From contig LUGL01000054.1 of NCBI GenBank assembly GCA_002796835.1, forward strand, positions 21,875 through 58,933: DNA of 37,059 bases. Reading direction: 5' to 3'. How positions within the stretch are numbered: the first letter of the stretch is position 1; each line of letters opens with the position of its first letter. Source of the stretch: Elainella saxicola E1. GTDB taxonomy: Bacteria; Cyanobacteriota; Cyanobacteriia; Elainellales; Elainellaceae. The translations under genes were made by a program, and so were the position numbers. Below, piece by piece: positions 9,036 through 14,487 of this stretch. The notes beneath the pieces are model-generated. The model made no database searches. It had not been told where the DNA came from and worked only from the letters and a program-made list of their open reading frames with translations.

Positions 9036-9392
9036 ATGTCGGCTTATGATGTAATTTACACGATCGTCCAACAAATTCCGGTCGGCAAAGTCGCTACCTA
9101 TGGTCAGATCGCTGAGTTAGCCAACATGCCAGGACAGGCCCGATTAGTCGGTTATGCACTTTATCGAGTGGCCCCCCATCAAGCAGTTCCTTGGCATCGG
9201 GTAATCAACGCTAAAGGGGAAATCTCTCAGTCTCCCTTTCGACATGGCGATGATAATTTGCAGCGAGCCTTACTGGAACAAGAGGGAATTCAATTTTCTC
9301 CATCAGGAAAGATTCGCTTACGGGATTACCGTTGGCAGCCAATCGATCTGCATCCTGACTTAACTTCTGAAACGAGCTACCAGTCTTCCTGA
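9036..9392 (+). CDS. Alkyltransferase-like (ATL) protein, MGMT family without active-site cysteine
   Basis: This 118-residue protein is the DNA-binding and lesion-binding domain of O6-alkylguanine DNA alkyltransferases. The active-site motif PCHRV is PWHRV (W53 instead of Cys), so it cannot accept an alkyl group. ATL proteins of this kind bind O6-alkylguanine and pass the lesion to nucleotide excision repair. Supporting features are VPVGKVATYGQIA-like start (IPVGKVATYGQIA, with the DNA-intercalating Tyr22), the arginine finger in ARLVGYAL (R36) and the HRVINAKGEIS strand. The ATG at 9036 is preceded by GAGGGGCG at good spacing. The 3' end overlaps the convergent gene by 16 bases. Confidence 0.92.
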   Translation: MSAYDVIYTIVQQIPVGKVATYGQIAELANMPGQARLVGYALYRVAPHQAVPWHRVINAKGEISQSPFRHGDDNLQRALLEQEGIQFSPSGKIRLRDYRWQPIDLHPDLTSETSYQSS

Positions 9393-10177
9393 TTGCGCCG
9401 CCGCTTTTCGATCGCGCCTTTTTCCGGTGCTGGTGGGCGGTTAGGGCGTCTGGGTCCATTGCGTCTGGGTTCATCACGCTGATCCGGATAATAACGGTCT
9501 GCTCGATCGCGGTCATCTTGAGAGTAAGCGTCTGGGGGTTGATTCAAACGGCGGCTGACTTCCAGGAAAATATCTTTACGCACATAGGGATAATCCGAGA
9601 CCCAAACATCGGAATCGGAAACATAAACATCCGAAATCTGCATAATTCGGCTTAAGTCAGGCCGATTGGAGAGCACCAGCATTTCGGCAATGTCACCCCG
9701 TCGGATCGATCGATGCGCTTTTTGCAGAGGAGCCTGAACCGTCGTAACGAATCCAGTATCGTCTTCGATCTCCAAATTGATCCGACGTTCGCGGTTTTCA
9801 ATGACGACAAGATCGCCCTGCTTATTGACTGTTTCTTCCTGCCCGACCAATTCTTCAGTAATGAAAAGATCTACTACTTCACCCCGAAAAAAGCCGCTAT
9901 ATTTGTACTTACGAAACTCAAGATTCTGTCGAGTAGCGTGATAGACTGGCTGCCACAACCAATACAACCCCGTTGCGCTTCCCAAAAAAGCAAAGATGAT
10001 TTGGAACTGATCATCCGAGAAATAGGCAAGAATTAAGACTACAACAACTGATGCGACCGAGATGAGGACACGCTGCAAAATATCTTGGAACTTGCCCCAA
10101 TAGTGGCGGTATTGGTCGGCAGTTGCGGTGCGAGGAACGAGTTCTTCAAACTTTTTGCGTGTAATCGGGATTAACAT
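9377..10177 (-). CDS. Conserved cyanobacterial two-helix membrane protein, function unknown
   Basis: The start is placed at MLIPITRKKFEELVP (10177), five codons inside the longest frame, because this N-terminus looks like that of related cyanobacterial proteins as I remember them; the first in-frame ATG at 10192 is the alternative. The product has about 266 residues. After a soluble N-terminus there are two adjacent membrane helices (VLISVASVVVVLILAYFSD and FQIIFAFLGSATGLYWLW), then a soluble beta-rich domain with INLEIEDDTGFVTTVQAP and an SDVYVSDSDVWVSDYPYV stretch. The last 50 residues are low-complexity and rich in Arg, Asp and Pro. Such proteins are sometimes labelled phosphate ABC transporter permease, but I see no permease features. 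Its 3' end overlaps the ATL gene by 16 bases. Confidence 0.8.
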   Translation of the reverse strand: MLIPITRKKFEELVPRTATADQYRHYWGKFQDILQRVLISVASVVVVLILAYFSDDQFQIIFAFLGSATGLYWLWQPVYHATRQNLEFRKYKYSGFFRGEVVDLFITEELVGQEETVNKQGDLVVIENRERRINLEIEDDTGFVTTVQAPLQKAHRSIRRGDIAEMLVLSNRPDLSRIMQISDVYVSDSDVWVSDYPYVRKDIFLEVSRRLNQPPDAYSQDDRDRADRYYPDQRDEPRRNGPRRPNRPPAPEKGAIEKRRRNQEDW

Positions 10178-10329
10178 AGCCAGCTGAATCAAGAGCCAAA
10201 CGTGAGTTGCCTGATGATACTACCTTACTGTGTTGGTTCTGAAATTGGCGCGATCGTCTTTAGTAAAGCACCGATCGCCCAAACGATAAAGGTAGAAACA
10301 CTGATTTTTCGGCAGCCACTACAAAATTG

Positions 10330-10525
10330 GGCCTGAAAGTTCCGTATATCTTTCGACGTGAGAATCAGGCTGGAAAAGACAGAATGAACTCACTTCTGGA
10401 GAACGCGATTCGGACGGCCAGACAACTAGGGGGCAATTGAGTTGTCTGTGTTCTTCCGGCTAGGAAAGCGTCCTTACAGGTGGACTGCCTGACCTTGGGG
10501 GCTTATGAGGTCAGGCAATTTTTTA
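10330..10525 (+). ncRNA. Candidate structured RNA: attenuator-like leader or small RNA with twin GGGGGC loops
   Basis: The 447-base gap 10193-10639 has no plausible gene but ends in a strong plus-strand terminator with no gene upstream on that strand, which implies a short RNA. Hairpin A: CAGACAACT (10419-10427) pairs perfectly with AGTTGTCTG (10440-10448). Hairpin B is the terminator: TGCCTGACCT (10486-10495) pairs with AGGTCAGGCA (10508-10517). Both loops are exactly 12 bases and alike: AGGGGGCAATTG and TGGGGGCTTATG. A possible outer stem joins GGACG (10412-10416) to CGTCC (10469-10473) around hairpin A. In addition GCCTGA (10331-10336), TCAGGC (10365-10370), GCCTGA (10487-10492) and TCAGGC (10511-10516) alternate, so the second could pair with the third and block the terminator. 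I found no convincing promoter; TATATC at 10345-10350 is the only -10-like box. The extent is approximate. Confidence 0.5.
10486..10525 (+). terminator. Strong Rho-independent terminator
   Basis: A perfect 10-base-pair stem (10486-10495 with 10508-10517) and a 12-base loop are followed by ATTTTTTATT (10518-10527). It stands 115 bases upstream of the sulfotransferase-glycosyltransferase gene and has no plus-strand protein gene before it. An in-frame ATG at 10505 would lie in the loop of this hairpin, which argues against it being the start of the following gene. Confidence 0.9.
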
Positions 10526-10639
10526 TTGACCCTTCAGTCTGTTGTTCGAAACATCAAATTTAGTTTCTGCGAATCTCGCTCCAAGATTAATGCAGAGACT
10601 CCTTGTTACTTCTGCATTTCAAGTCAATTCTGGGTTGTT

Positions 10640-12556
10640 ATGTCAGGTCAGCAGTTTCCCCGCCGCACTCCTCACTTCATCATTATTGGGGCCCAAAAGT
10701 GCGGAACAACTTCTTTCTATCGAAATTTACTGAGACATCCACAGATAGTGTCTGCCTCTAAGAAAGAAGTGCATTTTTTTGATGTGAACTTTGCTCAGGG
10801 AATTGATTGGTATTTAGATCATTTTCCACCCATTGCAGCTGATGATCCTCTGATTACAGGTGAAGCTAGCCCTTACTACCTGTTCCATCCGCTTGTTCCA
10901 GAGCGAGTCGCAAAGTTTTCTCCAGCTATCCGCTTGATTGTGCTACTTCGAAATCCGATCGATCGGGCAATTTCTCATTACTATCACCAACATCGCCGAG
11001 GTGAAGAAACTCAAACTTTTTTATCTGCAATTGAGCTCGAAAATCAAAGACTTGAAAAAGAAGAAGCACGAATTCTTGCGGATCATGACTACGAAAGTAA
11101 TACTCATCGAAACTGTAGTTATCTTACTCGTGGTCGCTATATCGAACAGCTCCAGCGCTGGATGAAGTTCTTTCCAAAAGAACAATTCCTAATTCTGAAA
11201 AGCGAAACTTTGTTTGCTGACCCAACCGCCATCATGCAGCAAAGCTTTCAATTTTTAGGGCTGGAACCTTACGATCTTGACCAATTTGAAGTCTTTAATC
11301 AAGGCAATTACGAACCCCTAGATACTCAGACACGACGCAGATTAGCTGAGTATTTTCAACCCTATAATCAAAAACTCGAACAATTTTTACAAATGCAATT
11401 CGATTGGGAAATGACTAATCCAAACTCGCTCGAAATGCAGCAACAGACGGGCCAGGTATCTCATCAAAAGCCTGCGCTGACTCTAGAGCGAGCTAAACAA
11501 AAGTTAGAGCAATCCCGAGTTTGGCTGAATCAATTTCAATCTAGCTCATTTGAAATCCCATCTATAGCTAAAACTGAGATCAAAAACTTGCCAAATCTAG
11601 CTTTCATTACCTGTATTGAACCAGGCTATTTGGAAGCACAATCCCTGCTGCTCTATGAGAGTATTCGTCGTCATACAGGCCGATTTCGTCATTGTCCGAT
11701 CTATGCGTTTTCTCCTAGACCGGGCTACACACTCTCACACATAATGCGCAAACGGTTAGAACAGTTAGAGGTGATTTATAGCGATCGACCCTTAAATACC
11801 CGACTACCCTTTTTTTCAATGGCAAATAAAGCTGCCGCTTGTGCAGAAGTTGAAGCGCAAGGACAGCATGAAATCCTGGTGTGGCTAGATAGCGATACGT
11901 TATTCTTCCGGGAACCTCAACAATTTGACTTACCTGATTTTTTTGATGTTGCAGTACGACCAATCAATCGAAAACGAAACTGCACCTCTGGCCTAGTCAA
12001 TCATCCATTTGATGCTTATTGGCGAACGCTCTGCCAATATGGGCAACTCGACTACAACGACCTGCCGTTTCTCGAAACCTGTGTAGATAGAAAGATTATC
12101 AAAGCCTGTTACAACGCCGGTTTAATTGTTGTGCGTTCCCAGAAGGCCATTTTCAGGCAATGGTTTGAGTTATTACAAAAAAGCGTTGATGGAGGCTTCG
12201 ACCCAAGAGTGGATTTGGTGTGGGATAACGATCAACCTGCTTTATCGATCGCGATTTGGAGAAATACGAAAAAAGTTAATATCCTTGAGCCTGTTTATAA
12301 CTACAACATTCGAGCAATTGACAATCCACCTCAGCAGAAAATGCTCGAAAGCTCTCTCCCATTAGTTCATATCCACTATCACAAGACGTTCAATTTCGAA
12401 TATCTCGACAGGAACCCTCTGTTGCAGCCTGATTTTGAACTGGAGGAATCTCTGAAGTCATGGCTGCTACCCAGGTTGCCCATTGATAAACCATTTCCTG
12501 AAACTGACTTATCTCAGTCCTCTCTTTGCTTCACTTCTAGTCTGCTTCACTCCTAG
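10640..12556 (+). CDS. Sulfotransferase-glycosyltransferase fusion protein
   Basis: Two enzymes are fused in about 638 residues. The N-terminal half is a PAPS-dependent sulfotransferase of the Sulfotransfer_1/heparan type: the 5'-phosphosulfate loop is IIGAQKCGTTSFYRNLL (about 14-30) and the 3'-phosphate motif is VLLRNPIDRAISHYY (101-115). A short helix with LEQSRVWLNQFQ (from residue 289) links it to a C-terminal domain that begins LAFITCIEPGYLEAQSLLL and has WLDSDTLFF with a DxD motif (417-419), typical of a GT-A glycosyltransferase. The likely job is to sulfate and build a surface glycan or glycolipid. The start at 10640 (MSGQQFPRRT) is chosen because the sulfotransferase fold begins there and a longer frame would start inside the terminator at 10486-10525; the ribosome binding site is weak. 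The next gene follows after 23 bases and has the same two domain types in reverse order. Confidence 0.88.
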   Translation: MSGQQFPRRTPHFIIIGAQKCGTTSFYRNLLRHPQIVSASKKEVHFFDVNFAQGIDWYLDHFPPIAADDPLITGEASPYYLFHPLVPERVAKFSPAIRLIVLLRNPIDRAISHYYHQHRRGEETQTFLSAIELENQRLEKEEARILADHDYESNTHRNCSYLTRGRYIEQLQRWMKFFPKEQFLILKSETLFADPTAIMQQSFQFLGLEPYDLDQFEVFNQGNYEPLDTQTRRRLAEYFQPYNQKLEQFLQMQFDWEMTNPNSLEMQQQTGQVSHQKPALTLERAKQKLEQSRVWLNQFQSSSFEIPSIAKTEIKNLPNLAFITCIEPGYLEAQSLLLYESIRRHTGRFRHCPIYAFSPRPGYTLSHIMRKRLEQLEVIYSDRPLNTRLPFFSMANKAAACAEVEAQGQHEILVWLDSDTLFFREPQQFDLPDFFDVAVRPINRKRNCTSGLVNHPFDAYWRTLCQYGQLDYNDLPFLETCVDRKIIKACYNAGLIVVRSQKAIFRQWFELLQKSVDGGFDPRVDLVWDNDQPALSIAIWRNTKKVNILEPVYNYNIRAIDNPPQQKMLESSLPLVHIHYHKTFNFEYLDRNPLLQPDFELEESLKSWLLPRLPIDKPFPETDLSQSSLCFTSSLLHS

Positions 12557-12579: not shown

Positions 12580-14487
12580 ATGCGGATCGTAGCTTTACTC
12601 ACTGTTAGAAATGAAGAACTGCATCTAGCCAGATGTCTGAAGCACTTGCAGCATGAAGGCATTGAAACCTGTTTGATCGACAATGGCTCAACCGATCGCA
12701 CGTTAGAAATTGCTCAACAATTTATTGGTCATGGTGTAGTCAGGATCGAGCGCATTCCTTACACTGGCGCTTTTGATTTAGAAGCAATTTTGAAAAATGA
12801 GGAGCGATTAGCCCAGGAAATTGACGCAGACTGGTTTATTCATCATGATGCAGATGAAATTCGGCAGGCTCCTTCGCCATACTCAACGCTTCGGGAAGCC
12901 ATTGCAGCAGTCGATGCCCAGGGATATAACGCGATCAATTTTGATGAATTCGTCTTTTTGCCAACCCAAAGGAACGAGGCTTTTGAACAAACAGACTATG
13001 TTCAAACCATGCGTTATTACTATTTTTTTGAGCCCTACCCAATACGACGAGTTAACGCCTGGAAGAAAAATCAGGCCCTGAACTTGCATCGTTCGGGAGG
13101 CCATCATGTGGAATTTGCTGATCAAAAAATATTTCCCAGTTCCTTTATCCTACGGCATTACATTGTGCTCAGCCGTGCCCATGCGCTGAGGAAGTATGCA
13201 GGCTGCGTCTATGCCAAAACTCAGTTAGACCAGGGACAATCTTTGAAGCGAGCTGCTTTTTCACCGGACAAACTTTGTTTTCCTACCAAAGATCGACTTA
13301 AAGAAATATCCAATCATCAGGAATGGGATAGATCCGATCCTTGGAAAGAACATGAGTTTATCAATCCTGTCGGCGCAAATGCTGATTGCTCTGCTGACTA
13401 TATTAGAAGAGGCTTCCCGTGGAACATCTCTGCCAATGCCAACACGACTAATTTGACGTATGACATTACGAGTCCGGGTTGGGCAATGCCCATTATTGTA
13501 GGAGCACCGAGATCAGGAACAACACTGCTCCGTTTAATGCTGGATGCGCATCCTGATCTGGCGATTCCACCCGAAACTCACTTCATTCCTACGTTGCAAC
13601 ATCTCGATTCCAAGCAACCTCAGCGGGAAGCCTTTTACCACCGCTTGGTTACAGATATCCGATGGCAAGATTTTCACCTGTCCAATCAGGAGTTCTACGA
13701 TGCATTAATGGAAATCGAACCCTTTACCCTTTCCGCAGGACTGCGTTGTTTTTATCGGCTGTATACAGCTCGGTTAGGGAAACAGCGTTGGGGAGATAAA
13801 ACTCCTCCCTATGTGCTATCCCTTCAACAAATTCAGACGTTGCTACCAGAAGCGCATTTTATTCATATCATTCGAGATGGCAGAGATGCTGCTTTGTCGC
13901 TGCAAAATCTTTGGTGGGGGCCAGGACATGACCCAGAAGCGCAAGCGGCCCGCTGGCTATGGCGAATCCGGGAAGGAAGACAACAGGGACAATATTGTGC
14001 TCATTATCTGGAAGTGCGCTACGAAGAGCTAATTACCAATACAACCAAAGTTCTTCAAACCATTTGCGATTTTATCCAGCTGCCTTACCACCCGAATATG
14101 GAGGGTTATTATCAGTCAGCTGGCGATCGGCTAGATGAGTTTACTGACATTCGGGAGGGAGGGATCCTGCGAACCAAATCTGCTCGACTCGCATTATTTC
14201 AGCGAACAGCATCTCCACCCGATCCAACCCGGATTGGCCGTTGGCGATCGGAAATGAGTGCAACCGATCGAGCTAAATTTGAAGCGGTTGCGGGTCCAAT
14301 GCTGCGAGATTTAGGCTACATTCCCCCCTATCAGGCGATGGAATTGAAGCCACTGAGGTGGCAGTCCTTGTGTCCATCCTCGACTCATTTACAGGCAATC
14401 AAAGCAGATTTAGAGCGATCGCGCATCTGGCTCCAGCAAGTGCAAATGCACCTCAATCCGTCGAGCTACTCTTGCTTAGCAAAATAA
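12580..14487 (+). CDS. Glycosyltransferase (GT2)-sulfotransferase fusion protein
   Basis: In this 635-residue protein the order of the previous gene is reversed. Residues 1 to about 290 are a GT2-like glycosyltransferase: [20 protein letters not shown], the nucleotide motif [10 protein letters not shown] and a DxD as HHDADEI (D90, D92). From about residue 300 a sulfotransferase domain follows: PAPS loop [17 protein letters not shown] (305-321) and 3'-phosphate motif [14 protein letters not shown]. The C-terminus carries [12 protein letters not shown] (from residue 611), nearly the same helix as LEQSRVWLNQFQ after the sulfotransferase domain of the upstream gene. The 23-base gap suggests one transcript. 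The role is probably synthesis of a sulfated glycan or glycolipid; the substrate is unknown. The last 22 bases overlap the convergent moaC. Confidence 0.9.

Follow-up and report, generated by a model that had tools for sequence, protein, structure and literature searches.

We identified what is apparently an undescribed small RNA family of cyanobacteria within the window, a 37,059-nucleotide stretch of the Elainella saxicola E1 genome (Table 1). Sequence comparison indicates that evolution has preserved this RNA in well over 100 species of cyanobacteria. We put the probability at roughly 0.55 that it is a single-copy, independently transcribed, trans-acting sRNA of about 133 nt whose two hairpin loops recognize GCCCCC sites in mRNAs by base pairing.

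Table 1. Features of the predicted small RNA gene (coordinates refer to the window)
Feature	Position	Strand	Evidence
Distal upstream DNA element, relatives' consensus GTAAATnTACGGATTT; degenerate here: GTAGAAACACTGATTTTT	10292..10309	+	
Proximal upstream DNA element AAGTTCCGTATATCTTTCGACGT, with inverted TACGGA core copy	10337..10359	+	homolog alignment
-10 box CAGAAT (consensus sAnAAT)	10380..10385	+	position 2 A 1.00 and position 6 T 1.00 in 101 homologs
Small RNA gene, about 133 nt	10392..10524	+	conserved block and covariance model; start inferred, end set by U-tract
P1 5' strand, long-range helix around hairpin 1 (CTGGAGAACGC)	10396..10406	+	RNAalifold consensus, pair counts, centroid fold
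Hairpin 1 (P2), 9-bp stem, loop AGGGGGCAATTG	10419..10448	+	two-sided changes, loop conservation
P1 3' strand, long-range helix around hairpin 1 (GCGTCCTTACAG)	10468..10479	+	RNAalifold consensus, pair counts, centroid fold
Hairpin 2 (P3, terminator), 10-bp stem, loop TGGGGGCTTATG	10486..10517	+	pairing, loop conservation, terminator scan
U-tract of intrinsic terminator	10519..10524	+	T 0.60-1.00 in homologs

The sequence-only reading had described two hairpins with G-rich loops on perfect stems of 9 and 10 base pairs, and inspection of the sequence places both exactly. The loop AGGGGGCAATTG (10428-10439) is closed by arms at 10419-10427 and 10440-10448, and the loop TGGGGGCTTATG (10496-10507) by arms at 10486-10495 and 10508-10517, after which come an A and six T. 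The second hairpin had been called a terminator, and a terminator scan also scores it as an intrinsic one. The RNA is predicted to fold in three parts: a long-range helix (P1), an extended hairpin 1 inside it (P2), and the terminator (P3). This fold is only moderately better than that of shuffled sequences (z -2.3 to -2.6), and GGGGGC occurs 11 times in the window where shuffles give 17.5, so the G-run alone is not unusual. The case for an RNA thus depends on comparison among genomes.

At E <= 1, a nucleotide search matched 52 of 60 relatives. About 41 of the matches are clear (E 1e-6 or better), nearly all of them ending at the U-tract, and the others are short chance matches. We built a covariance model from the 41 aligned sequences and ran it on 390 Cyanobacteriia genomes of at least 90% completeness. 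The RNA was found in 126 genomes from ten families, nearly always in one copy. Carriers recognized by a pattern scan include Elainella sp. Prado103, Oculatella sp. LEGE 06141, Phormidium tenue FACHB-886, Drouetiella hepatica, Pegethrix bostrychoides, Kaiparowitsia implicata, and Leptolyngbya sp. DLM2.Bin15. A broader model with laxer filters, run on one or two genomes from each family without a match, added one family that BLAST had already found. It gave nothing above noise in 15 sampled families (one or two genomes each), and the distribution therefore looks patchy by family rather than an artefact of sensitivity. Judged from these sequences, conservation lifts the element far above chance.

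Base pairing is preserved through sequence change. In a plain MAFFT alignment of the 41 clear homologs, 19 of 29 pairs already show compensatory change. A later alignment of 101 homologs, which was fitted to the covariance model and so leans towards structure, has two-sided changes in 26 of the 29 pairs, a level reached in 0 of 500 shuffles. Across these 101 homologs, 93.2% of cells are paired (80.7% when shuffled) and 413 cells carry a two-sided change (113 when shuffled); sliding the alignment by one column lowers pairing to about 51%. The covariation in orthologous regions that the sequence-only reading had named as a check is thus present. The two helices of P1 are paired in 95-97% of cells and include two-sided changes, each pair of the hairpin 1 stem has a two-sided change in some homologs, and the hairpin 2 stem is 99.4% paired with compensatory changes.

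The loops, by contrast with the stems, are nearly fixed, and the conservation in relatives on which the sequence-only reading had staked its proposal was found. The hairpin 1 loop core GGGG(G)CA is kept in 99 of 101 homologs and the GGGGGC of the hairpin 2 loop in all 101, within consensus loops WGGGGGCAWYU and NGGGGGCUU, respectively. Information content is 1.77 bits per base in the loop 1 core and 1.87 in the loop 2 core, versus 0.4-0.5 in the arms of the hairpin 1 stem. Fixed loops on variable stems resemble exposed recognition bases held on a structural scaffold, and on this ground we take the loops to be the recognition sites. Sequence is conserved in the P1 strands as well, at about 1.35 bits per base. 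Both exceptions to the loop 1 core are tandem copies in a single genome (locus L105, G045:C19, 2433-2579 and 3001-3139), about 570 bases apart. Hairpin 1 keeps its position in both copies and has lost its G-run, and the terminator loop retains GGGGGC.

We considered whether the predicted transcript could be a short, structured mRNA for a small protein. A GGAG lies near the 5' end, and cyanobacteria offer a precedent: the sRNA ncl0160 probably codes for a peptide of 23-25 aa (PMC4734099). Against this, the homologs share no reading frame: their longest ORFs have between 0 and 29 codons, with differing starts in those inspected, and indels do not come in threes. We regard a small-protein gene as hardly credible.

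Upstream of the RNA, conserved DNA delimits a putative promoter. The sequence-only reading had begun the element at 10330, which is too far upstream: positions 10337-10385 are promoter DNA, and transcription most likely starts at A10392. This probable start is suggested by the -10 box and by the near-invariance of that A, seven bases beyond it. The proximal element is probably a regulator site or a -35 region. The spacing of the distal element is kept in most homologs, including those with a different neighbouring gene. Because these elements, with their inverted TACGGA cores, are kept when the neighbour changes, they probably belong to the RNA gene. Inspection by eye of the DNA upstream of the RNA revealed no NtcA-type GTAN8TAC site. 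A regulon search with the upstream elements returned few other sites, in front of mixed genes. Sites of the GTAAATnTACGGA type also lie upstream of other genes (L259, L253, and L262, near position 1500), whose products, judged by reading, resemble phosphoglycerate mutase, an invertase-like glycosidase, and a helix-turn-helix protein; these sites possibly share the regulator of the RNA.

The sequence-only reading had left a choice between a leader and a small RNA. In this genome, a + strand gene begins about 115 bases past the terminator, at about 10640, and the RNA might be its 5' leader, riboswitch, or attenuator. This gene and the next (10640-12556 and 12580-14487) follow each other and encode large proteins, both with sulfotransferase domains; the second protein has a glycosyltransferase domain in addition. 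The two genes occupy the place that dapB has in many relatives, and the gene at about 10640 is not common to the relatives. The downstream neighbour in 17 of 40 loci is instead dapB (named from reading the sequence rather than from a family scan), on the opposite strand. On the upstream side, 16 of 40 loci have a hypothetical protein gene pointing away from the RNA, which in the window is the gene for a 271-aa protein with no Pfam match (9377-10192, - strand); the sequence-only reading was thus right that no same-strand gene lies upstream. Because the genes that usually flank it run in the opposite direction, a leader is not supported. It also stays put where neighbours change, and the consensus structure has no alternative antiterminator pairing. 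Membership in a cis-regulatory leader or riboswitch class, which would call for the same gene downstream on the same strand, was rejected because the shared gene is the opposite-strand dapB. Synteny thus largely refutes the leader reading, which we consider very improbable. The small RNA half of the choice is strongly supported: covariation, nearly fixed loops, a promoter and a terminator of its own, and the missing Rfam match all speak for a free-standing gene.

Several observations bear on whether this RNA has been described before. First, Rfam 15 has no family above its gathering threshold in the window, including 6S, SRP, tmRNA, RNase P, and Yfr-type RNAs, none of which the sequence-only reading had recognized either. 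Cyano-1 and Cyano-2, which it had wanted scanned together with the Yfr families, are likewise unmatched, as are glnA and psaA. A relaxed threshold gave a single chance snoRNA match in the window, and in 20 divergent homologs the only matches were chance ones to miRNA and rli42, far below threshold. Second, none of the relevant papers in the literature searched contains the loop sequences. The RNA could still be a homolog of a published cyanobacterial sRNA such as PsrR1, or be listed in a transcriptome supplement, but we think this improbable. PsrR1 adjoins genes other than dapB. Finally, NsrR1 was weighed and rejected as an identity. NsrR1 lies between alr1709 and all1710, is described as restricted to heterocystous strains plus two closely related unicellular ones, and has a -10 box overlapped by an NtcA site (PMC6166021). 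Carriers of the RNA described here include Leptolyngbya, Elainella, Oculatella, Drouetiella, and others, where it lies beside dapB and a hypothetical gene, and it is set apart from NsrR1 by this described context and range. The missing Rfam match, the absence of the loops from relevant papers, and the differences from NsrR1 together point to a new family, with some chance that it has been recorded elsewhere.

In general design, the RNA resembles NsrR1 of Nostoc sp. PCC 7120 (112 nt), which is likewise a conserved, stand-alone RNA, alone in its intergenic region, with its own promoter and a Rho-independent terminator. Like the Yfr1 and Yfr2 families, which are widely conserved cyanobacterial sRNAs, it combines an invariant unpaired motif with variable stems; the motif of Yfr1, however, is CACUCCUCACACC (PMC4734099) rather than GGGGGC, and no Rfam model matched. 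Compared by description, it may share with NsiR4 of Synechocystis the character of a regulated, trans-acting sRNA, although inspection by eye showed no NtcA-type site upstream.

At the sequence level, the gene has what is expected of a trans-acting sRNA: its own promoter, an intrinsic terminator, an intergenic position, no coding capacity, and a conserved exposed seed. We propose that the promoter, with its conserved -10 box and upstream inverted pair of TACGGA type, probably switches the RNA on under some condition. In the transcript, P1 would enclose the extended hairpin with its GGGGGCA loop, followed by the terminator hairpin with its GGGGGCUU loop. Both unpaired G5C loops would then base-pair with target mRNAs at GCCCCC sites, in kissing-loop or seed style, and so alter their translation or stability. 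With two copies of the seed, one RNA could hold two sites or two mRNAs.

The main rival is a protein-binding RNA that titrates or scaffolds in the manner of CsrB or RsmZ, its G5C loops binding an RNA-binding protein and controlling that protein's availability. Such RNAs (CsrB, RsmY, RsmZ) also repeat identical G-rich hairpin loops, and two features of the family would suit this role: the same hexamer sits in two hairpin loops and is kept almost letter for letter, and the P1 strands are conserved beyond the needs of pairing. Two sites are few for titration, however; the loop flanks differ (GGGGGCA vs GGGGGCUU), as expected of two seeds; and the L105 copies have lost the hairpin 1 G-run yet retain loop 2. 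A CsrA/RsmA-titrating RNA was rejected, since it would need GGA in several hairpin loops, and neither loop consensus contains GGA; binding of the CsrA type is therefore unlikely. We see protein binding as the less likely of the two, with a modest chance of being correct. Pairing with mRNA is favoured because characterized cyanobacterial sRNAs act in this way, including NsrR1 on nblA (PMC6166021) and NsiR4 (PMC9196836), and because the two loops continue differently past the G-run, as expected of two seeds.

Scans of limited scope turned up no conserved C-rich target sites. Perfect loop 1 complements in 12 genomes exceeded the reversed control; they were rejected as targets, being accounted for by the gene itself, chance matches in coding sequence, and a dispersed CCCCCTAAATCCCCC repeat. 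Loop 2 complements showed no excess over control. A scan for TGCCCCC near a Shine-Dalgarno sequence and ATG gave 70 sites, 31 with an ORF, and no recurring ortholog; the reversed control is unfair here, since it reverses the Shine-Dalgarno sequence and ATG too. We also observed a dispersed intergenic repeat, CCCCCTAAATCCCCCATT...GGGGGACTTTG, near the matched site in several relatives (L199, L209, L220, L212, L219, and L221), which can pair with loop 1 by chance.

A wider reading, which we advance tentatively and at somewhat less than even odds, is that this is an old, undescribed, two-headed sRNA family whose G5C loops, one of them in the terminator itself, grip C-rich mRNA sites under an inverted-TACGGA regulator, and which is missing from many families, perhaps including the usual model strains. 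If so, the two loops would each hold one C-rich site, either both on one mRNA or on different ones. Known cyanobacterial small RNAs come mostly from a few model strains, while this RNA, with its nearly fixed loops, spans at least ten families. As Rfam lacks it and the 15 other families sampled gave no match, studies of the usual model strains may never have come across it. The covariance model and the promoter elements would offer direct handles on its trigger and its targets.
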